Shown here piece after piece: positions 2,645 through 50,118 of a DNA stretch of 64,000 nucleotides (its first letter is position 1; the number at the start of each line of letters is the position of its first letter). Source of the DNA: Fulvivirga marina. Lineage in GTDB: Bacteria; Bacteroidota; Bacteroidia; Cytophagales; Cyclobacteriaceae. The translations under genes were made by a program, and so were the position numbers. Where the stretch lies: contig NZ_JAEUGD010000004.1 in the NCBI RefSeq assembly GCF_016775155.1, positions 1 through 64,000 of the forward strand. The letters run 5' to 3'. The notes beneath the pieces are model-generated. The model was given only the letters and a program-made list of their open reading frames with translations, made no database searches and was not told where the DNA came from.

Positions 2645-2875
2645 TCACCCATTGGGCGGATCACCAAGTTTATCAAAAATGATTTGTATTTGCCTGGGGT
2701 TGTAATATCTCCCTGACCTTTTTCCTATCAGGTGTTGAAAAGGCTTTAACCAGGAATAGAATGTTTTTCTACTTACATCATAGGCCGCCGAAAGCTCACC
2801 TACCCCCATTCTTCCAAATGTCTTTGCGCTTTTAATATTTTCCTTCAACATATCTATATATTTTTTTGTTAACAC
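2645..2875 (-). CDS. Small HTH protein of mobile-element type
   Basis: A 76-residue protein. Residues 25-45 (VGELSAAYDVSRKTFYSWL) form a helix-turn-helix. A basic tail with GKRSGRYYNPRQIQIIFDKLG follows, a layout seen in small excisionase-like or DUF4248-like proteins on Bacteroidota mobile elements. The start is GTG at 2873-2875. It lies 113 bases downstream of the RadA-like ATPase gene on the same strand, so co-transcription is possible. A role in element regulation or excision is inferred from size and context. Confidence 0.6.
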   Translation of the reverse strand: MLTKKYIDMLKENIKSAKTFGRMGVGELSAAYDVSRKTFYSWLKPFQHLIGKRSGRYYNPRQIQIIFDKLGDPPNG

Positions 2876-7835: not shown

Positions 7836-7855
7836 TGTTGGTTTAGGTTGATTAG

Positions 7856-7890
7856 CCATAGCAGGAGGCAAACGAGCCTCCTGACTATGG
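7856..7890. promoter_or_regulatory. Hairpin sequestering an AGGAGG sequence
   Basis: CCATAG-CAGGAGGC pairs with GCCTCCTG-CTATGG, 14 bp with one bulged A and loop AAACGA. It lies between the 85-residue and 104-residue genes and ends 18 bases before the next ATG. There is no T-run, so it is not a standard terminator. An mRNA element or a protein-binding site is possible. Confidence 0.45.
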
Positions 7891-7908: not shown

Positions 7909-8223
7909 ATGGAAAACAAAAACACTACATGGGAGGAGTCCGTGCAGCGCTACCAGCAATTGCTGGACGCTCTTAATCAACTTGTGCAGGACACGAGTCG
8001 TTTAGCGGGGAGTTATGAGAAAACCAATGTGGATTTTGCTCAACTCATCTATGAAAACGGCCTGTATGAAATCATGAAAAAGGCCGACCTGCTCAAAGAA
8101 TACGAACGCGCCTTTGAATTCATGCACTACAGCCTCAAAGGGCAGGTAGCTCAATTGCAACAGTTCCGTAATATCCTACAACATCTATCGATTAAAGACC
8201 CTGTGAACATGCCGGTAAACTGA
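7909..8223 (+). CDS. Hypothetical coiled-coil protein
   Basis: A 104-residue protein, almost entirely helical with heptad-like spacing (YQQLLDALNQLVQDTSRLAGSYEKTN). It has no signal and no recognised family. Its TGA directly precedes the GTG-ATG start of the next gene, so the two are translationally adjacent. Both lie upstream of the RHS toxin gene on the same strand, and a chaperone or adaptor role for the toxin is conceivable but untested. Confidence 0.6.
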   Translation: MENKNTTWEESVQRYQQLLDALNQLVQDTSRLAGSYEKTNVDFAQLIYENGLYEIMKKADLLKEYERAFEFMHYSLKGQVAQLQQFRNILQHLSIKDPVNMPVN

Positions 8224-8559: not shown

Positions 8560-11500
8560 ATGACACCTCAAAAACTTCTAATCAGCACCCTGTTTGTTAT
8601 TATTTCATCCTTTATTCCCGGCTTTGGCCAGGGGGACGCTCCCACTCAGGCACCCGAGGCAGGCTTCCAGCTTGGTAGCGACATTACTGGCGGGGCGGTT
8701 AGCGCTGTCAATCTATTCACCGGAGAGGTCAGCTTTCCACTCAACCTCGTATCTCTCCCTGGTAAAAACGGCATCACTCCCAGTGTCAATATATCTTATA
8801 ATTCCGCAGGTGTCAGCCGGCAAGCTGCGGTTTGGAACAAGGACGCCCCTGCCGGGGTGATTGGGTTGGGCTGGCAAATGGATTTCCCGAAAATCATTGT
8901 CGATCACAAACAAACCGGTACACGGGAAGATGACGATTTTTACCTGATGGATGGCGGGGTCAGCCAAAAACTTGTACTGATCAGGAACGGGGCTATCCAG
9001 CATTACACGACAGAGCAAAAATCAGCGACGGCCATAACTTATAACCCTGCGCTTGAAGAATGGAAGGTGGTTAGTGGCGATGGTGTGATCATGACTTTCG
9101 GTAATAAAAACAGCAATCGCAACACTATCCAGTGGGTTGTAAAGCATGACAACTGGATTGGCAGCACCATGCGAACTTCCAATGCCTCATCGATGGCCTA
9201 TGTCTGGAACCTGTCTGAAACGCAAAATCGCCTCGGTGATAAAATGTCCTTTCAGTATGAGGTTACTGATCAGTTAGCAGGCGGCAAAAAACAAACAGAG
9301 GCTTGCTACATTAGCCAGATCGCCGGACCGACAGGTGCTAAGATCAACTTTATTTATACTGATAAGCAGGCGGGTGAGTATGCAGAACCTCATTTGGAAA
9401 AGGCCGAACCGGATGCTTACCAGGAAGTTTACCAAAAAAGATACCTGCACCATATTGATGTGATCAACCCTTACGGGTTAAAGCTGAATACCGTCAGCTT
9501 TACCTATGAATTGCTCGGCACAGGGAATAGCGCCAAACGCTTATTAACCGCGATTAAGTCTACCAACAGCTTCGGAGAAACCTCGCCCGGTATTACGTTT
9601 GAATATGAGCGTTCAGGTGGCCTCATAGGCAAAATATCCTCTATCACCGAGGCTATGGGAAGTAATGTCAATTATCATTATGCACCGGTTACGCTTTCGC
9701 AGTCGGAGCGCTTTAAAAGCATTACCGCGCCTACGGGTTTCGGGGCACCTTCGGTATGGCAGGGCAATAATTTTGTGCTGGCAGGCTGGCATGAGTTGGA
9801 TGCTGACGGTAAAGCCAAAAAATCCGGCGCAACATTCAAGCTACAGGCTCACACTTGGGATGGAAGATGGATCAGCCGGGATATTTTTAATATCAACAAC
9901 GTAGTTTATGAATATGGAAGCTACAGGGATATTCAGGTTGTGGCTATGGGGGATTATTTCGCTTTTCTTAAAAAGAATTCCAGTCAAAGCTATTCGTTTT
10001 ATGCTTATCACAAAGACCCGCAGCGACCTGGAGAATGGGTAAGCTTCGGGCAAAGCGTTGATGTAGGCAGTGGCCAGCCCACTCTGATGGGCGGTGATAA
10101 TTTCGTGGCCGTGGGAGAGCGTGAAGACGGTGATTTGCACATCATCACATGGAATGGCTACGATTGGGAGAAAAAGGTTATTGCTTATACAGGTAATAAA
10201 GAGGTTTTTAATTACACGGCAGCCAATAATTATATCATTCGACATAGTACCTACGGCAGTGATGATGTGGAATTATATCATGTCAATGGTAAGCGTGAAT
10301 GGACGCGCGCAAAATTTCCTGAGAGCCATGTCGTTAATACGCACCCTGAGGATTTGGTGCGGTGGTATGCCTCCAACTCCTTTGCTGTATTGATCGGTGA
10401 AAGTATTTTTCTAAACAGCAACAAGTTTATTTTTAACTGGGATGAGAATTACAACGTTAATCAGCGCACCGATATTGACATACTGGACAATGATGCCATT
10501 ATAAATATCGTGGGGAATGACCTGGTTGCCTTTAAATTCCCTCAAACGCAGATCAAGGCCTTCCGCTACGATGGCGGGCAATGGAGAAGTACTTCGGGCA
10601 TGCAATATATGTATGCCGCATTTAGCGCCCCTTCCTACGGTGAGGATATTATTCTTTATACCGATAAAGATAGCGGCATTGGCAAGCGCAATATCTATAA
10701 TCCCAACACCAACTCATGGGGTGGAAGTGTAAATGTAAGTGGTGGTGGCTATCAGCAAATGGCCGGTCCCGATGGGCTGTTCTATAACAATTACAAATTT
10801 TACAAACGCCAGGCTAATGGCACGGTATCACAACTGGCAACAACTTCTAATACCTCTTTGCGTGGCAAGCCCCATTACGGCATAGGCATGGAGCCTTTCG
10901 CTATCTACACGTCGGGAAGTGACAGCTATATCCAAAAGTTTGACAACGGTGCTGATGCAGGGCTGATCACACTAACAGGCCGGAAAATAGACGGCCCGCC
11001 TTGTGATGGCTTTAACCTGCTTTCCCGTCAATATGTTAGTGGTCAGATCATTGCTTCATATAACGGCAGTTGTCCTGACCGGGCAACGAACCTGCTACTG
11101 AGCTATCTGGCAGATGGTCAGGTTTCAGGGCAGATTACGCGACAGGTGGTCAGCAAAGTAGAGGTCAATGACGGGTACCAATCAAGATATACGGCCTTTA
11201 GCTATACCACCAACACGGCCAAGGCGGATGTGAGCGGTATAACCGCGCAGTTTAATAAGGCAAGGGTTATTCCAGGAAGTAATAGCGCTTCATCTACGCC
11301 ATACGGCTATACGGACACGTATTTCTTTAATGGCTTAAGCTCTGAGGAAAGTAGCCTCCCCTTTCCGGATGAACAGGCCAACCCCGGTTTTCATTTGGGC
11401 GCATTGATGGGGACGACTTATGCTGCCTACGGCTATGATAAGGATGGTAATAACGTTTCGGTCAGCAAAACAACCTTTAAAGGATTTTTATTCCTTAATT

Positions 11501-14500
11501 ATAATGAGGCCGGAGGCTTGCAATACCAGTCGCGTTATATCAGACCTGTTCACCAATATAATCAGGTGGATGGTTTAAGTACCGAAACCCGCTACACTTA
11601 CAATACTGAAGGGCAGAAAGCCACCATGGTGGCCGAAAACTATAACAGTTCGGGTAGTAAAGATGTCATCACCACATTTTCCAAATACTGGTGGGAGGTT
11701 TATGATCCGAACCTGACAGGTACATTCCTGGGGCCGGTGGTACAAACCAGTGAAAAAGTGAACAACACGACGATTGCCAGCACAGCGACCCGCTGGAAAA
11801 CGCATACCGGAAAAACTACCGCTCCGATGCCTTACCGCAGCTATACATGGAAAGGTACCGGCTCTCCTGATTTCAGCGCCTGGAATGGTGATCCGTCAAC
11901 GTCTGATTGGCTCATCACAACTGACATCACCGAGAGGGACCAGGACTTTAATATTGTCAGCACCAAAGATATGGATAATCGTTACACCACGAATGTCTAT
12001 GACCACCATGGTGTTCAGGTTGCTACGGTTTATAATGCGGCTCCTTCAGAAGTGCTTTGCGCTGATTTCGATGATCACGACCTGACCAATAGTTCAGGAA
12101 ACTGGACGGCCTCATCCCACTGGCAATTTGACAATGGGACAATGAGGTTTGATAACACTTCCCAGAACGCTAACCTTTATAGCAATAAAGCTGTCAGTAC
12201 CTCTAAGAAGCAGATTGCAGAGTTTGATTACAAGCTGATCCACAGTGCTGGCTATCTGGCCTATCATTTTGGAAAGCAATCGGCGGCGCATGCACCTCAA
12301 AACTCGGGCTACACGGTACGTATCTACAGCGATGCCATTAAGGTCTATTACACCGGAACCCTGCTTGAGAGCTACACTTTTACCAATGATAAGCAATGGC
12401 ACCACCTGACTGTACGAAAGGGTGGTAAGATCAAGGTGATGCTGGATGGGGTAAAGATCATAGAGACTCTTGCTTCTTATGCTTTGGGTTCATACGACGG
12501 AATATACGCCACCTCCGGCAAAATGTATGCAGATAATTTCAGGCTTTATCCTGAAGGTGCCTATGCTACCAGTACCTCATATGAGAAAGACCACCTCTAT
12601 GCTACCGCTTCCATTAGCAGTGAAGGACTGATAACACGTAAGCTTTATAATAGCCTCGGCTATGCGGTGGCTTCCATAGGCATTGACGGTACACCGTTTT
12701 CAACCTCTGCCGGGTATAACGGCTATCGTGAAACAGGGAGCTTCAATACCGCAGACCCACCCAGCGCGCATACCACTACAATAAAAGCCAATGCCGGGTT
12801 TTACGAGGATTTTACGACTGATAACCCGCACTGGAAATATGAGGATTACAGCAACGGGGCAACACCTGTATTTAAATTTGAAAATGGTGAACTAAACGTA
12901 ACCAGTAGCGGCGGGGCAACCAATTCGCAGGCCGATATTTATTACATGGATATGTTAGAGGAGCTAACGGGAAACGTGGGTGTAGAATTTGATGTGCGTA
13001 CGATCCAGCCCGGCAATAACCATGCTTTGGGACTGGCCCTGGGCGGCGATGGATGGGACGTGCGCAATGGAGGTGCTGAAAATGCCGTATGGCTCGATTT
13101 CTCTACAAATAAGCTGCAAACCCATAATGGTCAGTGGAGCGCTATAAAAACAAACCTGAAAGCGGGGACCACTTACCGGATCAAGGTCATGGTCAACACG
13201 GAAAGGGGTACGGCTGATTATTTTGTGGACGGTAGGCTTTATCTCAACGACCTGCCGTTAAGGGCTAATACCAGCGGCATACAAAAGATCGGCTTTCTCC
13301 ACTACAGCTATGGCAGTGCCAGTGCATATGCTATCGATAATGTGGTAGTCTATGCTGATCCTATAGAAAGCACTACCTACCTGGATGCTGCGGGTAAAGT
13401 ACTGCAACAGCAGGGCAAGGAAAGTGACACCACTTTATTGGTCAGCCAGCAGCTTTATGATGCGCTCGGACGGGGCGATGTCACCGCAAAACTTACGCGG
13501 GTAACAGGGGATTTTGGTTATCGTCCGGATTTTATCACTAGCTATAACCGTAGCAACGGTTACATGTATGGTGAGGTAAGGGAATTGAACAATGACGGTT
13601 ATTACCCTTACAGCGCCACCCGGCATGAAACTTCACCGTTAGGCAGGGTTTTAGAAAAAAGCAGCCCTGGGGCTACTTATAAGTTGGGGTCGGGTAAAAA
13701 CGGAAGTATTGAATATCTCACCACTTCGGATATTGATCTGGGCTATCCGGGGGGTAAATACAGCGTGGTAAAAACTTTTTCTCCTGATGGTAGCGAGCAA
13801 ATTACCATGAGTGATCTGGCAGGCAATGTAATTTTGGAAAAAGCTGGCCCTGTTATCGGTACAGACCAGGAAACGCATTATACGGATAAGACTGTAATGA
13901 GCGGGCAAAGTCATGCGTTTTCTGTCCCTTTCAACAGTGAGGTAAGCTATGCTTATGCGGATGTGGAGACTTATAAAACTCGGGTAAAAATAGGTACTAC
14001 GCCGGGCGCTGGAGATATTGTGGATGGAGAGGTCAATGTGTCTGGCACGTTTCAGGCGCAGGCCAATAAGACCTATTACGCGACGGTAATTTTTGAATTG
14101 CCGGAGCCGACATTATATTACGATCTCGATTGTATCACGATCATCGAATATGATCCCAAGTTCTGTTTTGATGAAAACAACTGCCGGATATTATGTGTCC
14201 CGGATATTGTTTACTACGATTATGATTGCAGCACGCCGATAGACTACAATCCTGATTATTGTTTCAATGCTCAGAATTGTCGGATCAGTTGCGGGCCGAC
14301 ACCGGTCAGGTATTACGATTATGATTGTCGTACGCCTATTGCCTATAACCCGGACTACTGTTTCAATAACAAGTATTGCCGTATTACGTGCCCTGCTCCC
14401 TCAGTGGCCGATGCTCAGGCAACGTTACTAAATGATAAATCATATCTAAAACTGACATACGCTGATGGTAAAGTTTGGGTGGATGGCCATACAATTTATG

Positions 14501-17500
14501 CCACGACTACTTATAAGTATGACACTTATGGTCATCTGGTTAAGGTCTATCCGCCCAACTTCCACAACCCGCCGAATAATGAGGTGGACAGGAATGCTTA
14601 TATCAAGACGTATGCTTATGACTTCTTAGGCCGGGTGAAACAGCAAAACGGCCCGGACCAGGGTACTACAAAGTCTCTTTACAATGAGAACACAGGCCGC
14701 CTGGTATTTTCTAAGGATGGCAAAGGCATCATCAGCTATTTAAAATATGACCAGGAAGGGCGTGTGATTGAAAGCGGTATCTATACGGGAACGTGGAATG
14801 AAAGCGCACTTCAAAGCCTGGCTAATGGCGCTGGTCCGGCGGTTTCCGATACGCAAGTGAGGCAATACCATACTTATGAAACCGCTTTTGGGAATGATGT
14901 TTTCCACCGCGGGGAGCTGATCAGGACAGCAACCTATTACGAGGGTAATAACGATGCTGTAAATGAGTATTTCACGTATGACCGTTACGGCGTGAAAACC
15001 AAAGGGCTGCGGGTTAATAATTACAGTGAGGAAACGGTAACACTGAGCTACGCGAGGAATAACGTCGGTTCCCTGATTGAAGAGGTGGTGCCTGGCTTTG
15101 GAACCCTGAATTATAGTTATGACAGGCTGGGCAGGCTGGTTGCTATTGGTGAAACCGATGCACCTGAAACCTACGCCTCTTATACCTATGGCCTGAATGG
15201 CGGGCTGAGCCAGGAGAAGCTGAACAACAACAGCTTTGTCCGTAATTTCAAATATGATGGCACGGGTAAGTTGGTACAAATTGATGATCCGTATTTCAGG
15301 GAGGATATAAGCTATAGTGCCAATGGCTATGGCGGGGACGCTTATCATTCAGGACTGATAGCCCGAACGACTTATAACTATAAAGGTGTTTCTACCCTTA
15401 AGGGGGCACCGGCCAGCTATTATTATGCGTACCGCTATGATAAGCTAGGCAGGCTTGTGGTGAGTGACAACAGTGCGGATAATAATTGGGACATTGGGGT
15501 CGGGAGCCCCACCGGCTATGATCCTAACGGCAATATCCTTCGTATAAAAAAAGGCAGTACGCAGCAGCATTACAGCTATTATAACAACACCAACCGGGTA
15601 AGCCGCATTTCCGGCAGCACGGATCAGTTCAGCTATGATGCCAATGGTAACATTACCAGTTCGCAGACCAAACAATTAAGTGACATTACTTATGACAGCT
15701 ATTTCAATAAGCCGTTAAGTACGGTTTATGAGGGTGGTGTGGCACGCTATCGCTATAGCGCGGATGGTGAGCGCGTGATGAAGACCACGGTTCCCAATGA
15801 TGGCAGCGATACACATTATACCTTATATGTCAGGGGCATGAATGATTATCCCATGATCGAGAAGGAGCGGATTGATGCAGGGGACTGGCATACAAGGTAT
15901 TTTATTTATGGGCTTACGGGGCTGATCGCTTCTAAAACGGTAACGGCTTATGCCAACGCGGGCTTTGCGCCGAGTACCGCTACTTTTGAAGCAGATAAAC
16001 GGGCAGATGAAGAGCTGGAATTTGGTGAATCTTACCGCCAGGCACCTATTGTCAATGCCAGTCTTTTCAATGCCACGAAAGCAAAGGGTGCATCTTATGC
16101 CCTGAAGCTTACCGGGGAAGCGGGTAAGAAAGTTGGGGTAACGAAGATGCTGCAACTCTATCATGGTGATACGGTGAAGATGACTGTATCTGCCAAGTAC
16201 CTGAAGGCTCCTGAAAACAACAAAAGTTTTGTGCCTGCTGCATTGGCGGCGGAGCTGGTGCAATCGCTTGGTATCCCTGCCGGGGCGGAAGGTAATTTGT
16301 TTCAGGCGGCTTTTGAAAATGCGCTTTCCATAGGGGCGGCAGGGCTACAGGCGGATGAGAAGGGTGTGCCGCAAGCGTTCCTGAATTACATCTTTTTTGA
16401 CAAGCATATGAACCCGGTAAATTATGGTTATAAGCCGATTACCGAAGGGGCTTATGAGGATGGCACTGATCGCAGGCATGAGGTCATAGAGCTGGAGATG
16501 GTGGCCGACCGTGAGGGGTTTGCGGTGGTCTATGTGAGCAATGAAAGTCGTGAATATAGCGAGGTATATTTCGATGATTTTTCAGTGCAGCAGGTTTCTG
16601 TACCGCAGGTGAAGTTCTATAGCAGGGATCACCTGGGTTCTACGCGGGTGGTAGTCACGGCAAGTGGTACAGTGGATGCACGCTATGATTATGATGTACT
16701 TGGCAATATTGTAAGGCAGGAAGAAGGGTTTATTCCTAATGTTTACCGTTATACTGGTCAGGAATATGATGCAGAAACGGGCCTGCATAATTACAGGGCA
16801 AGGTTTTATGACAGTGACCTGGGCCGGTTTTATGCCGTAGACCCGCAGGGGCAGTTCCATAGCCCTTATACGGGCATAGCAAACAATCCTGCTAACTTTA
16901 CTGACCCGTCGGGGGAAATCGTCCCCTTAATTGCGATTGGTATTGGGGCGGTCATTGGCGGTGCGATCAATGTAGCGATGCACTGGAATAAGATTGACGG
17001 TGCTGGTGATTTTGCTGTGGCCTTTGGTATTGGCGCAGTGGCCGGGGCTGTAGGTGCTGCCACCGGGGGAGCGGCTTTTACGGCTATGGGTGGTGCAGCT
17101 GCCGGAGCCGGAGGCTTTATAGCAGGCTCTATCGGGGGTATGGCCGGATCGGCGGCATCCATGCCGATACAAAGCATGGGAAATTCCTTGTATTTCGGTG
17201 ATCCTTACATGACGGCTAAGGACTATGCAATTGGTATTGCAGCCGGCGGATTCATAGGAGGAAGTTTTCAGGGGATTAGTGCTTTGTATCACGGAAGAAA
17301 TTTCTGGACGGGTGCGTTTGGCTCTCCAAGCCCTGTAGTAGCACCTACCGTACCTACTATTGCCAGACCTGAAATTCCTGATACTGAGCTTTTACCTATG
17401 CCGCTAAGCGAGGTTAAAAAGGCTCCATTGTCCAGTACAGCGCCAAAAGCAGCGCTGCCGAAAGATCCGCTAGGAGCAAATGGAATGAAGATAGACGGGG

Positions 17501-17919
17501 GTGATTTTCTCGAAAATACTTTATATTTGGATGAGGTAGCGGTAACGGCTAAGGAGGTCGTCAGAGAGAGTGTTCCGACAGGAAGATTCTATTCTGTTGC
17601 CTTTGAAACCAAGTTAGCAAGTAATCTTTATCCAGGTAAAGGTTATTACTCTCACTTTAAAGCAGCCAATACCGCTTTAAGCAAGGCAATGACTTCCGAT
17701 GCGACATTCGCAAATTCAACGTCTAAATTGGGCATATCAATTCCTCGTTCACCAACAGGTAATATATTAGGGAAATCACCTACTAATTGGGTATGGCATC
17801 ACGACGTTGGTACGGGAGTTATGCAATTAGTTCCTAAAGTACAACATACATCCGGGAGTATATTTTGGAATACAATGCATCCAGATGGCGTAGGAGGAAT
17901 GTCAATTTGGGGAAGATAA
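8560..17919 (+). CDS. RHS/YD-repeat polymorphic toxin with WHH nuclease tip
   Basis: A 3119-residue secreted protein. The parts in order are: a Sec signal (1-23); an SpvB/TcC-type N-terminal region (SVNISYNSAG ... GVIGLGWQMDF); a long beta-rich segment; two concanavalin/LamG-like domains (about 1165-1335 and 1412-1602); three Cys-rich repeats (about 1850-1945); YD repeats; and the RHS core (YTGQEYDAETGLHNYRARFYDSDLGRF, then DPSG, about 2731-2786). After these come Gly/Ala-rich hydrophobic helices (2787-2900), a variable linker with LDEVAVTA, and a C-terminal toxin domain. In the toxin domain W3078-H-H with MQLVPKVQH fits the WHH family of HNH/endonuclease VII nucleases. The RHS shell probably encloses and releases the tip. 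No T6SS genes are nearby, so export is likely Sec-based. GC content is visibly higher than in the neighbours, a sign of transfer. Confidence 0.9.
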   Translation: MTPQKLLISTLFVIISSFIPGFGQGDAPTQAPEAGFQLGSDITGGAVSAVNLFTGEVSFPLNLVSLPGKNGITPSVNISYNSAGVSRQAAVWNKDAPAGVIGLGWQMDFPKIIVDHKQTGTREDDDFYLMDGGVSQKLVLIRNGAIQHYTTEQKSATAITYNPALEEWKVVSGDGVIMTFGNKNSNRNTIQWVVKHDNWIGSTMRTSNASSMAYVWNLSETQNRLGDKMSFQYEVTDQLAGGKKQTEACYISQIAGPTGAKINFIYTDKQAGEYAEPHLEKAEPDAYQEVYQKRYLHHIDVINPYGLKLNTVSFTYELLGTGNSAKRLLTAIKSTNSFGETSPGITFEYERSGGLIGKISSITEAMGSNVNYHYAPVTLSQSERFKSITAPTGFGAPSVWQGNNFVLAGWHELDADGKAKKSGATFKLQAHTWDGRWISRDIFNINNVVYEYGSYRDIQVVAMGDYFAFLKKNSSQSYSFYAYHKDPQRPGEWVSFGQSVDVGSGQPTLMGGDNFVAVGEREDGDLHIITWNGYDWEKKVIAYTGNKEVFNYTAANNYIIRHSTYGSDDVELYHVNGKREWTRAKFPESHVVNTHPEDLVRWYASNSFAVLIGESIFLNSNKFIFNWDENYNVNQRTDIDILDNDAIINIVGNDLVAFKFPQTQIKAFRYDGGQWRSTSGMQYMYAAFSAPSYGEDIILYTDKDSGIGKRNIYNPNTNSWGGSVNVSGGGYQQMAGPDGLFYNNYKFYKRQANGTVSQLATTSNTSLRGKPHYGIGMEPFAIYTSGSDSYIQKFDNGADAGLITLTGRKIDGPPCDGFNLLSRQYVSGQIIASYNGSCPDRATNLLLSYLADGQVSGQITRQVVSKVEVNDGYQSRYTAFSYTTNTAKADVSGITAQFNKARVIPGSNSASSTPYGYTDTYFFNGLSSEESSLPFPDEQANPGFHLGALMGTTYAAYGYDKDGNNVSVSKTTFKGFLFLNYNEAGGLQYQSRYIRPVHQYNQVDGLSTETRYTYNTEGQKATMVAENYNSSGSKDVITTFSKYWWEVYDPNLTGTFLGPVVQTSEKVNNTTIASTATRWKTHTGKTTAPMPYRSYTWKGTGSPDFSAWNGDPSTSDWLITTDITERDQDFNIVSTKDMDNRYTTNVYDHHGVQVATVYNAAPSEVLCADFDDHDLTNSSGNWTASSHWQFDNGTMRFDNTSQNANLYSNKAVSTSKKQIAEFDYKLIHSAGYLAYHFGKQSAAHAPQNSGYTVRIYSDAIKVYYTGTLLESYTFTNDKQWHHLTVRKGGKIKVMLDGVKIIETLASYALGSYDGIYATSGKMYADNFRLYPEGAYATSTSYEKDHLYATASISSEGLITRKLYNSLGYAVASIGIDGTPFSTSAGYNGYRETGSFNTADPPSAHTTTIKANAGFYEDFTTDNPHWKYEDYSNGATPVFKFENGELNVTSSGGATNSQADIYYMDMLEELTGNVGVEFDVRTIQPGNNHALGLALGGDGWDVRNGGAENAVWLDFSTNKLQTHNGQWSAIKTNLKAGTTYRIKVMVNTERGTADYFVDGRLYLNDLPLRANTSGIQKIGFLHYSYGSASAYAIDNVVVYADPIESTTYLDAAGKVLQQQGKESDTTLLVSQQLYDALGRGDVTAKLTRVTGDFGYRPDFITSYNRSNGYMYGEVRELNNDGYYPYSATRHETSPLGRVLEKSSPGATYKLGSGKNGSIEYLTTSDIDLGYPGGKYSVVKTFSPDGSEQITMSDLAGNVILEKAGPVIGTDQETHYTDKTVMSGQSHAFSVPFNSEVSYAYADVETYKTRVKIGTTPGAGDIVDGEVNVSGTFQAQANKTYYATVIFELPEPTLYYDLDCITIIEYDPKFCFDENNCRILCVPDIVYYDYDCSTPIDYNPDYCFNAQNCRISCGPTPVRYYDYDCRTPIAYNPDYCFNNKYCRITCPAPSVADAQATLLNDKSYLKLTYADGKVWVDGHTIYATTTYKYDTYGHLVKVYPPNFHNPPNNEVDRNAYIKTYAYDFLGRVKQQNGPDQGTTKSLYNENTGRLVFSKDGKGIISYLKYDQEGRVIESGIYTGTWNESALQSLANGAGPAVSDTQVRQYHTYETAFGNDVFHRGELIRTATYYEGNNDAVNEYFTYDRYGVKTKGLRVNNYSEETVTLSYARNNVGSLIEEVVPGFGTLNYSYDRLGRLVAIGETDAPETYASYTYGLNGGLSQEKLNNNSFVRNFKYDGTGKLVQIDDPYFREDISYSANGYGGDAYHSGLIARTTYNYKGVSTLKGAPASYYYAYRYDKLGRLVVSDNSADNNWDIGVGSPTGYDPNGNILRIKKGSTQQHYSYYNNTNRVSRISGSTDQFSYDANGNITSSQTKQLSDITYDSYFNKPLSTVYEGGVARYRYSADGERVMKTTVPNDGSDTHYTLYVRGMNDYPMIEKERIDAGDWHTRYFIYGLTGLIASKTVTAYANAGFAPSTATFEADKRADEELEFGESYRQAPIVNASLFNATKAKGASYALKLTGEAGKKVGVTKMLQLYHGDTVKMTVSAKYLKAPENNKSFVPAALAAELVQSLGIPAGAEGNLFQAAFENALSIGAAGLQADEKGVPQAFLNYIFFDKHMNPVNYGYKPITEGAYEDGTDRRHEVIELEMVADREGFAVVYVSNESREYSEVYFDDFSVQQVSVPQVKFYSRDHLGSTRVVVTASGTVDARYDYDVLGNIVRQEEGFIPNVYRYTGQEYDAETGLHNYRARFYDSDLGRFYAVDPQGQFHSPYTGIANNPANFTDPSGEIVPLIAIGIGAVIGGAINVAMHWNKIDGAGDFAVAFGIGAVAGAVGAATGGAAFTAMGGAAAGAGGFIAGSIGGMAGSAASMPIQSMGNSLYFGDPYMTAKDYAIGIAAGGFIGGSFQGISALYHGRNFWTGAFGSPSPVVAPTVPTIARPEIPDTELLPMPLSEVKKAPLSSTAPKAALPKDPLGANGMKIDGGDFLENTLYLDEVAVTAKEVVRESVPTGRFYSVAFETKLASNLYPGKGYYSHFKAANTALSKAMTSDATFANSTSKLGISIPRSPTGNILGKSPTNWVWHHDVGTGVMQLVPKVQHTSGSIFWNTMHPDGVGGMSIWGR

Positions 17920-42304: not shown

Positions 42305-42721
42305 GATACTAAAGGTACTAATGTAAATTGGGCAATAAGACGAGCTGACATCCTCTTCCGTCGCTACCCATACCTGGAGCAGGCCTACGAACTGGCCCAA
42401 GGCCTTGGAAGGATATACCACACCGTGAAAGACAAAGGCATCGCTTTCACCAAGCTTGCTAAATGGTATGACCAGGTAGAAAAAGCTCAGTTTAAATCCT
42501 TCAACACCGTTTCTGGGACGATCCAGCAACATTATCTGACTATCCTCAATTATTTTGAACGTAGAAACACCGATGTCGCAGCTGAGTCTTTCAATGCTAA
42601 AATTAAAGCCTTCAGGAATCAATTCAGAGGAGTTAAAAACGTTAGTTTCTTCCTTTACAGGCTTTCAGAATCTATGCTTAGTACAATTGCTCCACAGGTT
42701 TTCCGCTTGATCCCGAATTAG
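42305..42721 (+). pseudogene. ISAon1/ISL3-type transposase, C-terminal remnant
   Basis: About 138 codons remain open after a TAA at 42302-42304, with no proper start. The reading RADILFRRYPYLEQAYELAQ ... GIAFTKLAKWYDQVE ... NYFERRNTDVAAESFNAKIKAFRNQFRGVKNVSFFLYRL is the DDE_Tnp_ISL3 C-terminal block with the final catalytic Glu in AESFNAKIK. The zinc finger and first two catalytic residues are gone. No terminal inverted repeats are seen. Confidence 0.85.
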
Positions 42722-42738
42722 TCTACATGCTACAAAAT

Positions 42739-42818
42739 AAAAAAGCAGCCAGAACCCCTTCTGACTGCTTGCGGTTTTCCGAAACCGTTTAATTAACCTA
42801 AACTAAAGTATTTTTAAT
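42739..42818 (-). ncRNA. Tandem small-RNA-like unit C
   Basis: This unit is read on the minus strand. A degenerate -7 box (TAAGTTCG, 42825-42832) precedes TTTAGTTTAGGTTAATTAA. A hairpin follows (CGGTTT/AAACCG, 42772-42787), then an 11-bp terminator hairpin with loop GGGG (42744-42769) and T5. It is the most diverged of three units, but both hairpins are kept by compensating changes. The 5' end is a guess. Confidence 0.5.
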
Positions 42819-42854
42819 TGCTTGCGAACTTATAATTCCACAGGCTTTCTTTTT

Positions 42855-43003
42855 AAAAAAAAGCAGTCAGGACCCCTCCCGACTGCTCATGATTAATCGT
42901 AAACCATTAATCAACCTAAACCTAATCTTTAATATTTTTTTTGAGATTACTCTCAATTATTCCTCATCCTAAAATTCAAGCAGCTTTATTTATTGCCTGA
43001 ATG
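42855..43003 (-). ncRNA. Tandem small-RNA-like unit B
   Basis: This unit is read on the minus strand from a TATATTTG box (43009-43016; another at 43060-43067). Hairpin 1 is TTGAGA/TCTCAA (42941-42956). Then come the conserved GGTTTAGGTT, hairpin 2 GATTAAT/ATTAATC (42891-42912), terminator hairpin 3 with GGGG loop (42862-42887) and T7. Hairpins 2 and 3 and the linker are identical to unit A. Confidence 0.6.
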
Positions 43004-43098
43004 TTTTACAAATATAAGGCACTTATAACCACATTTACATTAGGGATTTTCCGTAATTTCAAATATAAGTGTTTCCCTTAGTAACCATTTTCAGGCGT

Positions 43099-43201
43099 AA
43101 AAAAAGCAGTCAGGACCCCTCCCGACTGCTCATGATTAATCGTAAACCATTAATCAACCTAAACCTAGTCTTTAATATCTTTATGAGATTATTCTCTCAC
43201 T
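43099..43201 (-). ncRNA. Tandem small-RNA-like unit A
   Basis: This unit is read on the minus strand from TATGTTTG (43208-43215), a perfect TAnnTTTG box without a clear -33 element. Hairpin 1 is TGAGA/TCTCA (43184-43199), hairpin 2 GATTAAT/ATTAATC (43134-43155), and terminator hairpin 3 AGCAGTC... with GGGG loop (43105-43130) then T6. The predicted length is about 100 nt. There is no plausible coding frame. It lies downstream of the degenerate receiver gene, so processing from that mRNA is an alternative to an own promoter. Confidence 0.6.
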
Positions 43202-43250
43202 ACAATGCAAACATACATAGTATAACTCACTCTATTATAGGCGATAATAC

Positions 43251-43676
43251 TTATTTTAATAAATACGTGTTTCCCTTATAACTTTCCAAAAGTGTAGAAA
43301 CATACTTACCACCCTCCAGCAAATGCTCAATTGCCTCCGGTAATTCTTCTTCAAATGAATGAACCAAAAGATACCCATTAGCTCCTCTGTCAATAATGCT
43401 CTCTATTAAAAGCCTTTCGGTATAATGATCCAGAACAAGTACAGGGCAAGACCACTCATATTGATTATCACATATTAACTGCAAAAAGTCTAATCCAAGA
43501 CTATAGGTATCCACTATAATTAGGGCAGGCTCTTTTATTCTCTCCAGGTATGGAGAAGAACTATCCGGAGATACTAAAAAAATATCCCACAACTTGAAAG
43601 CCTGATTTGGAATACTTTCAAATACTTCATTAGAATTACTAAAGAAAGCTATGTCTCTATTTTCGTCCCGGTTCAA
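43251..43676 (-). CDS. Degenerate response-regulator receiver protein
   Basis: A 141-residue stand-alone receiver-like domain: PALIIVDTYSLGLDFL holds the phospho-acceptor-like Asp, CPVLVLDHYTERLLIESIIDRGANGYLL the later strands. The acidic pair after strand 1 is replaced (AFFSNSNE), and the conserved Lys of strand 5 (normally K-P/S) reads V-H-S, so normal phosphorylation is doubtful. There is no HTH. The start is a TTG; no ATG is in frame upstream, so the N-terminus is uncertain. It lies downstream of the NarL-type regulator on the same strand and probably modulates that pathway. Confidence 0.65.
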   Translation of the reverse strand: MNRDENRDIAFFSNSNEVFESIPNQAFKLWDIFLVSPDSSSPYLERIKEPALIIVDTYSLGLDFLQLICDNQYEWSCPVLVLDHYTERLLIESIIDRGANGYLLVHSFEEELPEAIEHLLEGGKYVSTLLESYKGNTYLLK

Positions 43677-43779
43677 TCTATAGTTGGATTTGGCTAGGGT
43701 AAAAATATCAAATGAAGCCAGGGAAGTTATAAGGAAATATGCGTAATTTGGTTTTTACGTGTAACCCTTATACACCTTA

Positions 43780-44439
43780 CTAAATCCCTTCAAAAAGGTT
43801 GTTTTTAATAGCATAAAGCACTAATCCTGTAGAATTTTTTGCGCCGGTTTTTTCTAACAAATTTCGTTTGTGTACCTCCACTGTCCTCACGCTAATAAAA
43901 AGCTTATCTGCTATTTCCTGGTTTGAATCTTCTTCAAGTATAAGTCGATAAATTTCCTTTTCCCTAGGGGTAAGTGGGGTTGGCAAAGCCTCTCCTGTAC
44001 TTTTGGGCTTCTTTTTTGCCAAGTTGTTCATCACAGTTTGAGCCACTTCTTTACTGTAGTATATTTCGTCTCCCAGGATAGCATTTATCGCTTCCTTCAT
44101 TTCATTTTCATCACAACTTTTGAGAATATACCCGCTCGCCCCGGCATCCATCATGGCCTTAATGTGCTGATAGTCATTATGCATGGTAAGGGCCAATACA
44201 CGGATATTTTTATTAACTTTCATTATTCGTCTAGTGGTTTCAATGCCATCCAGCCCATCCATATTAATGTCTATGATCACCAGGTCCACCTTTTCGTTTT
44301 TCTTCTCCAGGAAATCAAGCGCCTCCAAACCATTAGCCGCCTGATCTATCACTTCATAATCAGGGTCATTTTCTAAATAGAGTGCTACTCCATCTCGTAC
44401 TACTTTATGATCATCAACTATTAATATTTTTGCCTTCAT
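43780..44439 (-). CDS. NarL/LuxR-type response regulator
   Basis: A 219-residue protein. The receiver (1-120) has D9/D10, phospho-acceptor D57 in VIIDINM and K near residue 106 (YILKSC). The C-terminal LuxR HTH (about 150-212) reads LTPREKEIYRLILEEDSNQEIADKLFISVRTVEVHKRNLLEKTG. ATG 44439 gives the standard N-terminus (MKAKILIVDDHKVV) and overlaps the end of the kinase gene by 26 bases, so kinase and regulator are coupled partners. Confidence 0.93.
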   Translation of the reverse strand: MKAKILIVDDHKVVRDGVALYLENDPDYEVIDQAANGLEALDFLEKKNEKVDLVIIDINMDGLDGIETTRRIMKVNKNIRVLALTMHNDYQHIKAMMDAGASGYILKSCDENEMKEAINAILGDEIYYSKEVAQTVMNNLAKKKPKSTGEALPTPLTPREKEIYRLILEEDSNQEIADKLFISVRTVEVHKRNLLEKTGAKNSTGLVLYAIKNNLFEGI

Positions 44440-47176
44440 AAGATTCTTTTCTATAAGGTACTTCAACAATTATTACGGTTCCGTTACCCTTTCCGCTTTC
44501 GATTTGCAAACTTCCCGAGAGGGAATTTACTCTGTTCAACATACTTTTCAAACCAAAACTATTTCCAGTTTCCATCTTTTCATTGGCATCAAAACCTATA
44601 CCGTCATCCTCAATGGTTAATATGACTTCCTCTTCATACTTCATCAACTGAATAGACACTGTCGTAGCTTTTGCGTATTTCAAAATATTATTCACAGCTT
44701 CCTGAGTAATTCGATACAAATGAAGTTCAGTGTTTTTAGGCAGCCTGTCTCCCTTCAGATTATCATAAAAATCAAACTTAGTCTCAGAAACAGCATCAAG
44801 GTCGGCAAGTAAACTTTGAACAGAAAGTACATAACCAAAATCTTCAATACTCTGGGGCATCAGATTATGAGCTATTTCCCTACTATCTCTAATAGCCTCT
44901 TTCAGATAATTAAGTCCAGTATTGAGTTTTTTTAAGCCTCCATTATTAAAAGAGATGTCTTTTTTCAGTGAATTAAAATTTAGAGAAACTGTCGTCAGCT
45001 TCTGACCTAGGGTATCATGCAACTCTTTTGCTATACGTGCCCTTTCATTGTCTTCCGTCTCTATAATAGTAGAAATGATCTTCTCTTGGGCTAACCTGCG
45101 GTCTGTAATATCCATTACAAACCCCTCGATCATATCACCTGCCGGAGAAATAGCCCTGCCTTGCTCCCACATCCATTTCTTTTCTCCGTGAATATTAACG
45201 GGGTATATGATCTGAAACTGTTTATTTGCTGCCAGTGCCTGTTGAATAGCTTTAACGTTCTCAACATTATATTCTTCAGGGATCATATCAGAAAGGCGTA
45301 TTTTTCCATTGAGAAAATGTTCAGGTGGTATTCCAAATACCACTTTGCTACCTTCACTGACAAATACTGGGGTAAATCCTTCATCCACCTTACTCCTATA
45401 AACCATGCCAGGAATATTTGCCATGAGATTAGCCAACGTCTGCTGGCTTTCCATAAGCGCCTGCTCCGTAACTTTGGATTCATGGATATCCACATGAGTA
45501 CCTATAGCTCGTATAGCCCTACCATTTGAATCCCTATCCACAACACGCCCATGCACCAAGAGCCACTTCCACTCTCCGGACTGTGTTTTTATGCGGTATT
45601 CATTTTCATAGTAATCCGTTTCTCCCTTCAGGTGGCTCACCAATCTTTCCCGGGTTCGTCTCCGGTCATCAGGATGCAGCATTTCATAAAACTCTTTCGG
45701 TTTGGGCTGAGACTTATCAACCTCATAGCCTAACATTTTAAATTGATAATCATTAAAATGCAATGATCCTGTACGGATATCCCAATCCCACATTCCTTCA
45801 CGCGCACCTTCTATCGCCATTTGCAGACGCTTTTCGCTCTCTGAAAGAGCCTCCACCATTTTACGCTCCTCTGTAACATTTCTGGAAACATATAATATAT
45901 GTGTACATCGCTTGCTCCTGTCCAGAATAGGTATCAAACTAGATTCAGCTACACCTCTGCTACCATCAGGCATTTTGAAGCCTTCTTCATATTTTATCTG
46001 CTGCTGCGAACGTATGGCTTCCGCCATTTTTTGATACCTGTAGTTGATTTCGTTATCATCCAGCTTTAGTAATTTCCTGTAAAGGTCTTTTAATCCCATG
46101 CCTATAACTTTATAGGAAGGGTAGTCCTTATTAAGCATATATAGTTCTTTCAAGTACCAATCGGGTAGCTTGGCTACAGCATAAGAACCTAACTTACGAA
46201 CCTGAAACAAGGCGATAAACTCTGATGCATTATTATATATTAAGGAAAGAGTCTGTTGTCTGGATTTAATATTGGCGTAAGCCCTTTTCAGATCCGCTGT
46301 TCTTGCGGCAACCATCCTGCGAAGTACATTAACATAAAGTAATAGTTGCCCTACAATAAAAATAGCCACACCTAATATTACATAACCCCATATGGGCACT
46401 TCAAAAGGCTTGTGCTCTTTGAAGTAAGTATTCATAGATCTATAGTAAATGGAAGACTTATCCTGTTTAAGTGCTACAATATGGCTTTCAATGATGGGGA
46501 CAACCTTGGCTTCCAAAGGCGCTGCATCACGAAAAATAAAGGAAAGTCTGAATGGCGAGAACACCACGGGGGTCTGCATCACATCATATTTATAATCATT
46601 GATGTCTCCATAAATTCGGCTGACGATACCAGCATCTACTTTTTTCTTATCAATCAGCTCAAGAATTTCCTTATAGTTCTTTGCTTTTACAATGGTACAC
46701 CGCAAATCCAACTCTTTTATAGAAGCGTAAAACCCTTTATAAGGTCCATTGATAAAGTAGCTGTTTTCCAAAACAGCCACACGTTTCCCTCCCAAATCGA
46801 GCAATGAGGTGTAATCAGACTCACGCTTGGCATATACTCTTGCCCATGTAGAAACCAGACCGGAACTGGCTATGTCGAAGTTGGCGCTTCTCCCCTTATA
46901 ATCTCCAGACTCAGTGGTTACATCAATTTCGCCAGATTCCAACCACTGAAAACATTCATCTGCCTTACCATTTTTATAAATAAGCCTCCACCCCTCTTTT
47001 TCTGCAATATCTTTAAGAATATCTATAAACAATCCCTTTGGCTCTCCACGCGAATCGGAGAATGCAAGCGGATAATTATCATAAACACCAACCCTGATAA
47101 CTCTTTGACCATTTACCGTTGAGTAAAATGAAAAGAGGACCAATGCAACAAGGAGCAAATTTCTCATATAATACAT
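44414..47176 (-). CDS. Histidine kinase with periplasmic solute-binding sensor and PAS domains
   Basis: A 920-residue protein with a signal (to about 24). A family 3 solute-binding domain (25-255) has VIRVGVYDNYPLAFSDSRGEPKGLFIDILKDIAEK, and a membrane helix lies at about 265-287. PAS-like domains follow, at least two clear with PAC motifs (GMWDWDIRTGSLHFNDYQFKMLG; ...GTHVDIHESK). A HisKA_3 domain with ERARIAKELHDTLGQKL (phospho-His near 720) and an HATPase domain (NILKYAKA ... EDDGIGFD) end the protein. It senses a periplasmic ligand and phosphorylates the overlapping NarL-type regulator. It is divergent from the YfiR-like and TonB receptor genes. Confidence 0.92.
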   Translation of the reverse strand: MYYMRNLLLVALVLFSFYSTVNGQRVIRVGVYDNYPLAFSDSRGEPKGLFIDILKDIAEKEGWRLIYKNGKADECFQWLESGEIDVTTESGDYKGRSANFDIASSGLVSTWARVYAKRESDYTSLLDLGGKRVAVLENSYFINGPYKGFYASIKELDLRCTIVKAKNYKEILELIDKKKVDAGIVSRIYGDINDYKYDVMQTPVVFSPFRLSFIFRDAAPLEAKVVPIIESHIVALKQDKSSIYYRSMNTYFKEHKPFEVPIWGYVILGVAIFIVGQLLLYVNVLRRMVAARTADLKRAYANIKSRQQTLSLIYNNASEFIALFQVRKLGSYAVAKLPDWYLKELYMLNKDYPSYKVIGMGLKDLYRKLLKLDDNEINYRYQKMAEAIRSQQQIKYEEGFKMPDGSRGVAESSLIPILDRSKRCTHILYVSRNVTEERKMVEALSESEKRLQMAIEGAREGMWDWDIRTGSLHFNDYQFKMLGYEVDKSQPKPKEFYEMLHPDDRRRTRERLVSHLKGETDYYENEYRIKTQSGEWKWLLVHGRVVDRDSNGRAIRAIGTHVDIHESKVTEQALMESQQTLANLMANIPGMVYRSKVDEGFTPVFVSEGSKVVFGIPPEHFLNGKIRLSDMIPEEYNVENVKAIQQALAANKQFQIIYPVNIHGEKKWMWEQGRAISPAGDMIEGFVMDITDRRLAQEKIISTIIETEDNERARIAKELHDTLGQKLTTVSLNFNSLKKDISFNNGGLKKLNTGLNYLKEAIRDSREIAHNLMPQSIEDFGYVLSVQSLLADLDAVSETKFDFYDNLKGDRLPKNTELHLYRITQEAVNNILKYAKATTVSIQLMKYEEEVILTIEDDGIGFDANEKMETGNSFGLKSMLNRVNSLSGSLQIESGKGNGTVIIVEVPYRKESYEGKNINS

Positions 47177-47332
47177 AAACACGATCCCTTGTAAATATTA
47201 AATCTAACAAATTCCTCTCATATATTACTCCCCCTAAGTGAATTACGTATTTTAAAAAATACGTTGAAGCTCTTAAAGTTGTAAAAAAAACAATACCGAC
47301 TTTTGCAGTCAAATTATACTCCATAAATAATC

Positions 47333-47848
47333 ATGAACAAATTTTTAAACTTTCGGTATTTACTAGCTGCTCTTTTGGTAGCAGCAAGCATTCAGTCATA
47401 CTCACAGGCCACTGATGATCAAGTAAAAACGGTGTTTGTTTTCAATTTTACAAGATACATCCAATGGCCTACAAATGAAAGTAACTTTACAATCGGAATT
47501 TTGGGCGATGATACTGCCCTTGAAAAAGCATTTCAGGATATGGCTTCCAAAAAGTCTACATCAGGTAAAAAAATCATAATTAAGAGCTTTGCTTCAGCTA
47601 GTGAAACAAATAATTGTAACATCCTATACATACCCAAAGATCAAAGCTCTCAATTCTCTCGAGTTAAATCCCAAGACTTAAAGAACGTGCTTATCATTAC
47701 TGAAAAAGCAGGATTGGGTCGTCAGGGTAGTGGTATTAACTTTATCGAAGTTAATGGAAAGATGAGGTTTGAAATCAACAAAGGCGAAATCGAAAGAGCA
47801 GGCCTGAAGGTATCAAGCCAGCTTTTAGGGCTAGCCAATGAAGTTTAA
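47333..47848 (+). CDS. YfiR-family (DUF4154) periplasmic protein
   Basis: A 171-residue protein with a signal peptide (cut near SYSQA). It shows the YfiR pattern: VKTVFVFNFTRYIQWP, FTIGILGDD, a central NILYIP, then IITEKAGLGRQGSGINFIEVNGKMRFEINKGEIERAGLKVSSQLLGLA. In Pseudomonas YfiR restrains the diguanylate cyclase YfiN. No GGDEF protein is encoded nearby, so here it may act on the divergent sensor kinase. It is followed by a TonB receptor gene on the same strand. Confidence 0.85.
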   Translation: MNKFLNFRYLLAALLVAASIQSYSQATDDQVKTVFVFNFTRYIQWPTNESNFTIGILGDDTALEKAFQDMASKKSTSGKKIIIKSFASASETNNCNILYIPKDQSSQFSRVKSQDLKNVLIITEKAGLGRQGSGINFIEVNGKMRFEINKGEIERAGLKVSSQLLGLANEV

Positions 47849-48021: not shown

Positions 48022-50118
48022 ATGAAGAATTTTTTGACCTTATTTTTTATTTCTGTGCTCTCTTTTGGCGCTATGGCGCAGAATGATGAAGATTTATATG
48101 AATTGTCTCTGGAGGACCTCATGCAAATCGAGATATATTCTGTCTCTAAAAAGGCAGAATCACTTTTTGATGCGCCACTTTCAAGCTCTACATTAACAGC
48201 TGATGAAATTGTTAATTCTGGTGCAACCAGCATTCCCGAAGCCTTGCGTCTTGTTCCTGGCCTAATTGTAAGGGAGCAAGCCAATGGTGTTTACGATGTA
48301 CATTTAAGAGGGCTGGATAACCTTACAAGGTATAGTAATGGAGCCGATGCCAGCAACCTGATCACCTTGATTATGATTGATGGCCGGCCTATTTTCAACA
48401 ATAACCTTGGAGGTGTGTACTGGGAAGCTATTCCTATCAGTTTAATTGATGTAGAAAGGATCGAGATAGTAAGAGGGCCTTCTGCTCCATTGTACGGACC
48501 CAATGCAGTTGCTGGTGTAATCAACATTATTACCAAGAACGTAACAAAAGAGGGTTTAACTGCTCAGGCTGACCTTAGAGCAGGTAATGCTAACACGCAA
48601 ATAGGCGGTATTAACCTAGGTTATAAATTCAGTAATAAATTCAGTGCTTCTGTATCAGGAAATTTTGAAATGCGTGATAGACACGATGACCTGTATTTTG
48701 ACTATGCATCCGGATCATTTACCAATTATGAAAACATAGCAGGGCTTGCCTCCGATTACATTGAAGACAAGGACCAATCTCTGGATAAAAGGGGAATGAA
48801 CCTTTTCATGGACTTCACCCCTACAGAAAAGTTCAGTGTACAACTTCAATCAGGTATACAAGAAGCTTCTATTCAGAAAGTTTATCAAGACAACTTTTAT
48901 ACTCCTTTCTCAACTTCGAGCTATGAGTCAAAATATGCAAGTCTCAGCGCTACATATGGTAATCTGACAGGAAGGTTTTCATTTGTTGATGGCTATGATA
49001 ACCTTGAGGAAGGCTCCACTTTCCCATTACTCAAATACGATTACAAAACTATTGATGCATCGGTTGAATACGATTGGAGTATATCAGAAAAACTTTCCAT
49101 ACGCCCAGGTGTAAGCTACCAGTCTGCACAATATAGCGACGAACCGTACATTGCTCCTGAATCTGGTATTTTGGGTGTATTAAATAATGAACAGACCATC
49201 GAAAGCTTTGCCGGTTCTTTTGGTATAGATTATGATATTACCGAGGCATGGAGACTAGTGGGTGGTATCCGAATGGATAAATTCTCTACTCCCGATGAGG
49301 CCTATATTTCTTATCAGTTGGCCTCCACATACAATATCAATGAAAACAATCTGATAAGAGCTGTGTATGCAAAATCCAATAGTGGATCATTTATAGGCCC
49401 CAATTATGTCAATATAGTTTTCCCCAGAAATGGAGACATCGTTTCTTATTCAGGAAATAAAAACCTTGACTTATTCCAGATCCAAATGGTGGAACTTGGG
49501 TACAGAACAAAGATATCAGGCAACTTTGAATTAAATGCTGAATTGTTCCATCAGACCGCTGAAAATGCATACATTACACTTTTAGATGCTGAACCTGGGG
49601 CTGTGTATTATTCGTATGAAAACATTGATGCAAAAGCAACACAAAACGGATTGACTTTGTCTGCTAATTATGTAGCAAACAATAAATTTCAGATAAAACC
49701 TTTTATTACTTATCAACAAACAGAGGTTAAGGATCTACCTACAGGATTCAGAACAACTGCTATTGATCCTGTAAACAACATCAGCAATACAGTGACGGTC
49801 GACAATGACCAAACTCCATCTTTGTTTGGTGGGTTGTACCTGAATTACAAACCGGTTAAGAACCTCAACATCAATCTTAACCCGTATTACATGAGCGAAC
49901 AAAGCCAATACAGCTTTTATAGCTTTGCAAATCCAACATCAGATGTTGGTGAAGTTGACAGCAAGTTGATCATCAATGCGAAGGTGGCATATGATGTAAC
50001 CAAGAACATTAACATTTATATAAACGCAAGAAACCTGTCTGGTACTGATAGTAGAGAATATATAGGGGCGGACAGGAACACTGGGTTAATACTAGGTGGA
50101 GTAAGAGTGAAGTTGTAA
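48022..50118 (+). CDS. TonB-dependent outer-membrane receptor
   Basis: A 698-residue protein with a signal peptide (1-20, AMAQ). The plug domain (about 45-170) has SIPEALRLVPGLIVREQANGVYDVHLRGL and VERIEIVRGPSAPLYGPNAVAGVINIITK. A 22-strand-type barrel ends GGVRVKL. It lacks the carboxypeptidase-like N-terminal domain of SusC types and resembles cobalamin/catecholate receptors. With the upstream YfiR-like gene it forms a unit also seen with sensor kinases in other bacteria. The ligand is unknown. A clear terminator follows. Confidence 0.92.
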   Translation: MKNFLTLFFISVLSFGAMAQNDEDLYELSLEDLMQIEIYSVSKKAESLFDAPLSSSTLTADEIVNSGATSIPEALRLVPGLIVREQANGVYDVHLRGLDNLTRYSNGADASNLITLIMIDGRPIFNNNLGGVYWEAIPISLIDVERIEIVRGPSAPLYGPNAVAGVINIITKNVTKEGLTAQADLRAGNANTQIGGINLGYKFSNKFSASVSGNFEMRDRHDDLYFDYASGSFTNYENIAGLASDYIEDKDQSLDKRGMNLFMDFTPTEKFSVQLQSGIQEASIQKVYQDNFYTPFSTSSYESKYASLSATYGNLTGRFSFVDGYDNLEEGSTFPLLKYDYKTIDASVEYDWSISEKLSIRPGVSYQSAQYSDEPYIAPESGILGVLNNEQTIESFAGSFGIDYDITEAWRLVGGIRMDKFSTPDEAYISYQLASTYNINENNLIRAVYAKSNSGSFIGPNYVNIVFPRNGDIVSYSGNKNLDLFQIQMVELGYRTKISGNFELNAELFHQTAENAYITLLDAEPGAVYYSYENIDAKATQNGLTLSANYVANNKFQIKPFITYQQTEVKDLPTGFRTTAIDPVNNISNTVTVDNDQTPSLFGGLYLNYKPVKNLNINLNPYYMSEQSQYSFYSFANPTSDVGEVDSKLIINAKVAYDVTKNINIYINARNLSGTDSREYIGADRNTGLILGGVRVKL

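Follow-up and report, generated by a model that had tools for sequence, protein, structure and literature searches.

Predicted tandem small RNAs beside a two-component locus of Fulvivirga marina share a conserved core complementary to leaders of exported-protein genes

To our knowledge, few trans-acting small RNAs (sRNAs) with known targets have been described in Bacteroidota. In other systems, the Qrr sRNAs under LuxO are transcribed from sigma54 promoters. The Bacteroides thetaiotaomicron sRNA GibS carries a conserved single-stranded seed, which pairs at translation starts and represses (PMC7366714), and Rfp18 of Flavobacterium psychrophilum is a conserved flavobacterial sRNA required if secreted metalloproteases are to be expressed precisely (PMC9723704). 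The response regulator GacA works almost solely via the sRNA genes RsmY and RsmZ (PMC2904497).

In this work we focused on three tandem units, predicted to encode sRNAs, in a 64,000-nucleotide stretch of Fulvivirga marina DNA (the window). Like GibS they belong to Bacteroidota and carry a conserved core, their pairing at start codons being a matter of complementarity only; GibS, which was compared with them by sequence through Rfam only, is a single Bacteroides gene with metabolic targets (PMC7366714). The wiring that we propose, a response regulator acting through sRNA genes, resembles that of RsmY and RsmZ, but the latter titrate a protein, RsmA (PMC2904497), whereas base pairing is proposed for the window units. 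As in the Qrr system there are several sRNAs of related putative function, and the sigma54-type promoters of a second Fulvivirga cluster, described below, are reminiscent of it; the window units differ by their TAnnTTTG boxes and NarL-type regulator. Rfp18, compared by description only, is likewise linked to secreted proteins, but its pairing region lies in its third stem-loop (PMC9723704). DonS-type Bacteroides RNAs also affect outer-membrane genes, but lie cis-antisense to susC homologues (PMC7366714), a position not shared by the window units. We claim no membership of a known family for them.

Three copies of an 84-nt direct repeat lie at 43099-43182, 42856-42939 and 42738-42821, the first sharing 98% and the last 68% identity with the middle copy. 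Between 42400 and 43700 the minus strand bears three terminator-like hairpins, each with 12 pairs, a GGGG loop and a T-run, against 1.0 (sd 0.9) expected on both strands of shuffled sequence. Folding z-scores were -5.4, -5.6 and -3.3 for units 1 to 3, and for each unit none of 200 dinucleotide shuffles was as stable. Repeat, hairpins and folding together confirm the original prediction, made from the sequence alone, of three tandem units on the minus strand. That no frame codes there also holds for this strand, which has no ORF of at least 60 aa in the units, and a coding role was rejected on this ground; the plus strand has one ORF of 70 aa. The loop described as an invariant GGGG is constant within this genome but not in relatives, which have GAGG and others. 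Units 1 and 2 are intact and unit 3 looks degenerate (Table 1).

Table 1. Position of the predicted RNA units, their signals and the neighbouring genes in the window
Feature	Position	Strand	Remark
Unit 1, predicted sRNA	43099..43201	-	~103 nt; kept in genus, folds better than shuffles
Unit 2, predicted sRNA	42855..43003	-	~149 nt; kept in genus, folds better than shuffles
Unit 3, diverged copy	42739..42818	-	no own promoter or palindrome; perhaps decaying
Core (putative seed), unit 1	43151..43167	-	TAGGTTTAGGTTGATTA
Core (putative seed), unit 2	42908..42924	-	TAGGTTTAGGTTGATTA, same letters
Core (putative seed), unit 3	42790..42803	-	GTTTAGGTTAATTA
Terminator hairpin, unit 1	43104..43131	-	terminator scan
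Terminator hairpin, unit 2	42861..42888	-	terminator scan
Terminator hairpin, unit 3	42743..42770	-	terminator scan
Promoter -7 box, unit 1	43208..43215 (43215-43208)	-	TATGTTTG, fits TAnnTTTG
Promoter -7 box, unit 2	43009..43016 (43016-43009)	-	TATATTTG, fits TAnnTTTG
Palindromic putative regulator box, unit 1	43250..43277	-	overlaps end of receiver-like gene
Palindromic putative regulator box, unit 2	43052..43079	-	
Palindromic box before receiver-like gene	43742..43769	-	
Palindromic box between kinase gene and divergent YfiR-like gene	47236..47263	+	
ISL3-type transposase remnant (DDE_Tnp_ISL3)	42425-42721	+	same place as PAS histidine-kinase gene in relatives
Receiver-like gene, 141 aa	43251..43676	-	no Pfam match
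NarL-type response regulator (Response_reg + GerE)	43780..44469	-	Pfam
Sensor kinase (SBP_bac_3, PAS, HisKA_3, HATPase_c)	44414..47182	-	Pfam
YfiR/HmsC-like protein (DUF4154)	47333..47848	+	Pfam
TonB-dependent receptor plug protein	48022..50118	+	Pfam

The comparison with Rfam that had been proposed was carried out and gave no family match. With Rfam 15 the only match in the whole window was a tRNA away from the units. A permissive search of 42600-43400 returned 14 sub-threshold matches (best 20.9 bits, cut-off 60), and on eight related loci the matches fell away from the cores; a known Rfam family was rejected, since no score in 42600-43400 reached a gathering threshold. A literature search on Fulvivirga sRNAs, Bacteroidota sigma54 small RNAs and lipoprotein-leader sRNAs returned no report of the family. 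A cis-acting leader of the downstream gene was also rejected, as the units are followed here by a transposase remnant and in relatives by a kinase gene with its own box.

The main feature of the units is a conserved core rather than the hairpins, and it was not part of the original prediction. Of 13 aligned units, 12 retain TTTAGGTTRATTA and 10 the complete TAGGTTTAGGTTGATTA, whereas the terminator and the hairpin preceding it vary. Fold prediction on isolated units gives UAGGUUUAGGUU a mean unpaired value of 0.54-0.69 and places GAUUA in a paired state in units 1 and 2, so that a conserved single-stranded seed comparable to that of GibS is predicted for UAGGUUUAGGUU and not for GAUUA in these two units.

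The earlier argument from covariation was only partly right. The change from GGA/TCC to GAA/TTC between units does include a compensatory change (alignment columns 64/71). The replacement of GATTAAT/ATTAATC by CGGTTT/AAACCG is not covariation column by column: the arms do not share alignment columns, in the 13-unit alignment 83.7% of cells allow the GATTAAT/ATTAATC pairing, and strict covariation of this hairpin was rejected. A different hairpin, TGGTT/AATCA, which reads CGGTT/AACCG in unit 3, pairs in 96.8% of cells. Four pairs are changed on both sides, three in the terminator and one in the TGGTT/AATCA hairpin, a count reached by 29 of 500 shuffles of rows that are related; the covariation score of this hairpin and the terminator, also computed on related rows, was reached by none of 500 shuffles and exceeds that of slid versions.

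Promoter-like boxes had been noted before two units, and both are present. They fit TAnnTTTG, the -7 box described for the primary sigma factor in Bacteroidota (PMC7366714). Each is preceded by a palindrome, CKTA-N10-TAMG. A TAN2-3TTTG box stands 43-44 bp from the centre of this palindrome in each of the 12 copies, taken from six species, of units 1 and 2 (another TAN2-3TTTG match falls within range as well in two F. marina cases); the distance from palindrome to core in the same copies varies from 95 to 214 bp. Unit 3 has neither signal. We wrote a flanked pattern, AAGKGN4ACKTAN7AAWTAMG, from the boxes of this locus, which it thus matches by construction. Judged by coordinates, all 16 exact matches in seven genomes lie inside the two-component locus, four of them in F. 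marina (units 1 and 2, the receiver-like gene and the gap between the kinase and YfiR-like genes). With one mismatch there are 14 matches, seven in the locus and seven elsewhere, and the reversed control pattern has 15 in all. One relative, G011, has the two-component locus and the flanked box, and no unit was found in it. Since no exact match to the flanked palindrome falls elsewhere in the seven genomes, the adjacent NarL-type regulator probably drives units 1 and 2. The kinase of this locus carries a solute-binding domain.

The conservation search covered 58 genomes, F. marina (G000) included, 15 of them from the genus. Strong unit matches were found in seven of these 15 (G000, G014, G001, G002, G006, G004 and G007); among the 58, G005, G037, G054 and G018 gave short weak matches only. 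In six of the seven the units follow the receiver-like gene directly, and in G001 that gene and the units are at the ends of two separate contigs. Behind the units, G014, G004 and G001 have a PAS histidine-kinase gene. The proposal of a duplicated sRNA family, perhaps tied to the two-component cluster, is supported by this distribution, by the fixed spacing of the promoter boxes from a cluster-specific palindrome and by the lack of an Rfam match. Of 291 sampled genomes of the order searched with a covariance model (R1), 18 gave matches at E <= 0.01, with strong matches (E below 1e-12) restricted to F. marina, G004 and G007. The remaining 15 genomes have one match each (E 0.0007-0.0083); read by eye, most of these are terminators that lack the complete core, and we counted none of them as a member.

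Some further elements were seen in passing. At L046 ~3999-4122 (+) and the matching slot of L047 and L048 (G004, G006, G007) the second unit, by eye, forms the 3' part that follows a small lipoprotein-like ORF of ~40 aa. Small hydrophobic ORFs of ~28-40 aa were also noticed by eye downstream of the receiver-like gene in some relatives, near the unit positions of others (L055 ~2700-2815 (-), L318 ~4465-4595 (-), L046 ~4310-4400 (+)). On the opposite strand of L322 and L323 (G212, G045) TTTAGTTTAGGTT precedes a terminator in genomes of another taxonomic family of the order, and this site is possibly a distant member of the sRNA family.

The complement of the core, AACCTAAAC, recurs just before start codons. 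In six unit-bearing genomes it lies at most 18 nt before ATGA 128 times, against 31 for the reversed motif. Before any ATG (AACCTAAAC-N0-18-ATG) the seven unit-bearing genomes have 262 matches (155 reversed, 142 permuted) and the eight other genus genomes 216 (268 and 216). Individual genomes depart from this division: G002, which has units, shows no excess (26 vs 23 and 25), and G005, where no units were found, shows one (21 vs 15 and 8). Some of the matches are antisense to the cores themselves. From the 128 rows before ATGA we read 70 loci (every row of G004, every F. marina row apart from one within unit 1, and some of the remaining rows), giving 77 distinct sites, of which 31 were dropped for a frame shorter than 60 aa. 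Among the 46 genes left, with frames of at least 60 aa and partly orthologues of each other in related species, 39 look exported by the hydrophobic N-terminus that they encode, a feature shared by 95/220, 145/309 and 149/291 sampled genes, and many products carry lipoprotein-like signals. In 34 of the 46 a C directly follows AACCTAAAC, which extends the complement to the core. In 400-kb samples AACCTAA is the top 7-mer before starts in G004 (9 vs 1.4 expected), and is not enriched in F. marina or G011.

Duplexes between core and leaders were scored at a single threshold of -13 kcal/mol against 100 shuffled cores of equal dinucleotides, with naive gene calls (longest ORF of at least 110 aa, first ATG) and a hydrophobicity rule for export. 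At exported genes we counted 20 in G004 (mean 5.0 for shuffled cores) and 9 in F. marina (3.5), with no shuffled core as high in either; 5 in G014 (2.4; 11/100 as high), 6 in G011 (5.3; 41/100), 7 in G026, which is not known to have units (3.4; 6/100), and 5 in Olivibacter (4.1; 41/100). At 100-51 nt upstream of exported genes there was no excess in six genomes (22 to 92 of 100 shuffled cores as high). Taken genome by genome, these counts make a strong case for targets in G004 and a significant one in F. marina, the other genomes giving a mixed picture. The units might instead be regulated sRNAs with other real targets, the matching leaders reflecting a general A- and C-rich bias in front of exported genes. 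Leaders in this phylum lack a Shine-Dalgarno sequence and are A-rich (PMC7366714), and over all genes duplexes are somewhat raised in G026 and Olivibacter (2/100 shuffled cores as high in each), leader counts in Olivibacter not being raised. We consider this explanation improbable: a general bias is at odds with the lack of excess in the eight pooled genus genomes in which no units were detected and at the exported genes of G011, with the failure of shuffled cores of equal dinucleotides to give such an excess in G004 and F. marina, and with the preference for the C that the core requires.

The core is also used outside the locus. TTTAGGTTNATTA occurs in 14 of the 15 genus genomes, in settings that are not always RNA-like. 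In G004, G006 and G007 a second tandem set (L125, L128, L130, L123, L058) has the core close behind a sigma54-type promoter, TGGCA[CT]-N5-7, and TTCC-N5-6-GGA-like repeats were seen further upstream in many of its members. All 16 AGGTTTAGGTT places in five loci, selected because they carry the core, have both such a promoter and a terminator. In GTDB contigs YAGGTTTAGGTTGATTAR gave 51 matches in 46 stretches. By our own scan, which misses a few terminators visible by eye, 32 of the 43 Bacteroidota matches have a terminator behind them, as do 56 of 3000 places picked at random in these loci, and 13 of the 43 have a sigma54-type promoter (13 of 3000); none of the eight matches in other phyla has either. 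Several matches, read by eye, stand behind a gene whose product ends in IERVK, presumably elongation factor P. In L157 and L176 the opposite strand of the core is the leader of a gene, hence the idea of targets. A wider reading would be a phylum-wide, Hfq-free riboregulatory code, in which the seed UAGGUUUAGGUUGAUUA recurs in RNAs that are otherwise unrelated, some driven by a regulator, some by sigma54 and some carried in 3'-UTRs, and each RNA links its own signal to mRNAs of secreted proteins marked by a complementary leader; as a whole we hold it only tentatively and think it may well claim too much.

Elsewhere in the window (7838-7890, +) TTTAGGTTGATTA is followed by a hairpin without a T-run, before an ORF of 104 aa (7909-8223). 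The same element stands at L138 ~1623-1680 before a similar 101-aa ORF, and occurs in G001 and G014 (L122, L135); it is possibly a second structured leader sharing the core. Near it, at 8560-17919 (+), an ORF of 3119 aa has by eye the look of an RHS/YD-repeat protein.

The reading that we favour, with moderate confidence, is that of a sensor-controlled sRNA family with one seed, regulating the translation of exported proteins. Units 1 and 2 would be transcribed as genes for trans-acting sRNAs, and unit 3 would be a weaker or decaying copy. The kinase and the NarL-type regulator would activate units 1 and 2 by binding of the latter to the palindrome ~62 bp before each putative start; as exact palindromic sites occur only in this locus, the sRNAs would be the outlet of the two-component system to the rest of the genome. 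Each would carry an exposed seed, UAGGUUUAGGUU(GAUUA), and end in a terminator. In the cell the seed would base-pair with mRNAs encoding secreted proteins and lipoproteins, at a AACCUAAACC-type sequence immediately ahead of the start codon, and so control these mRNAs, most likely by blocking rather than activating translation, as described for GibS at its targets (PMC7366714).

Hfq was not detected in the window's genome, which does encode a single-RRM protein (RRM_1, 97-aa frame; L382, G000 C54:138147-138356). This protein could be a helper of the sRNAs, or the partner titrated if the units were sponges, with UAGG/UUUAGG repeats sequestering an RNA-binding protein such as this one. That the motif is short, repeated and partly unpaired would suit a sponge, as would these findings on Hfq and RRM_1 and a wiring like that from GacA to RsmY/RsmZ (PMC2904497); the excess at exported genes, however, consists of leaders complementary to the core, not of copies of it, and we give the sponge only a small chance. 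Least likely is that the units have no function of their own and belong to the receiver-like gene, either as stacked terminators, an alternative already raised with the original prediction, or as pieces of its 3'-UTR. This would agree with their place directly behind that gene, with the lack of a promoter for unit 3, which may indeed fit it, and with cores before terminators of protein genes, but for units 1 and 2 it conflicts with the promoter and palindrome at fixed spacing in six species and with a core that is conserved while the terminators change.

On the reading of a sensor-controlled sRNA family, the two-component system, none of whose exact predicted sites falls outside its locus, would have the tandem sRNAs as outlet and form with them a testable circuit from sensing to surface proteins. 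The leaders of Bacteroidota without classical Shine-Dalgarno sequences and a genome in which no Hfq was found are the setting that would make such a circuit notable. The match between the shared core and many start regions of secreted-protein mRNAs hints at how sensing might be linked to control of the cell surface, and one seed under different promoters may offer a way to find such RNAs in Bacteroidota from sequence alone.
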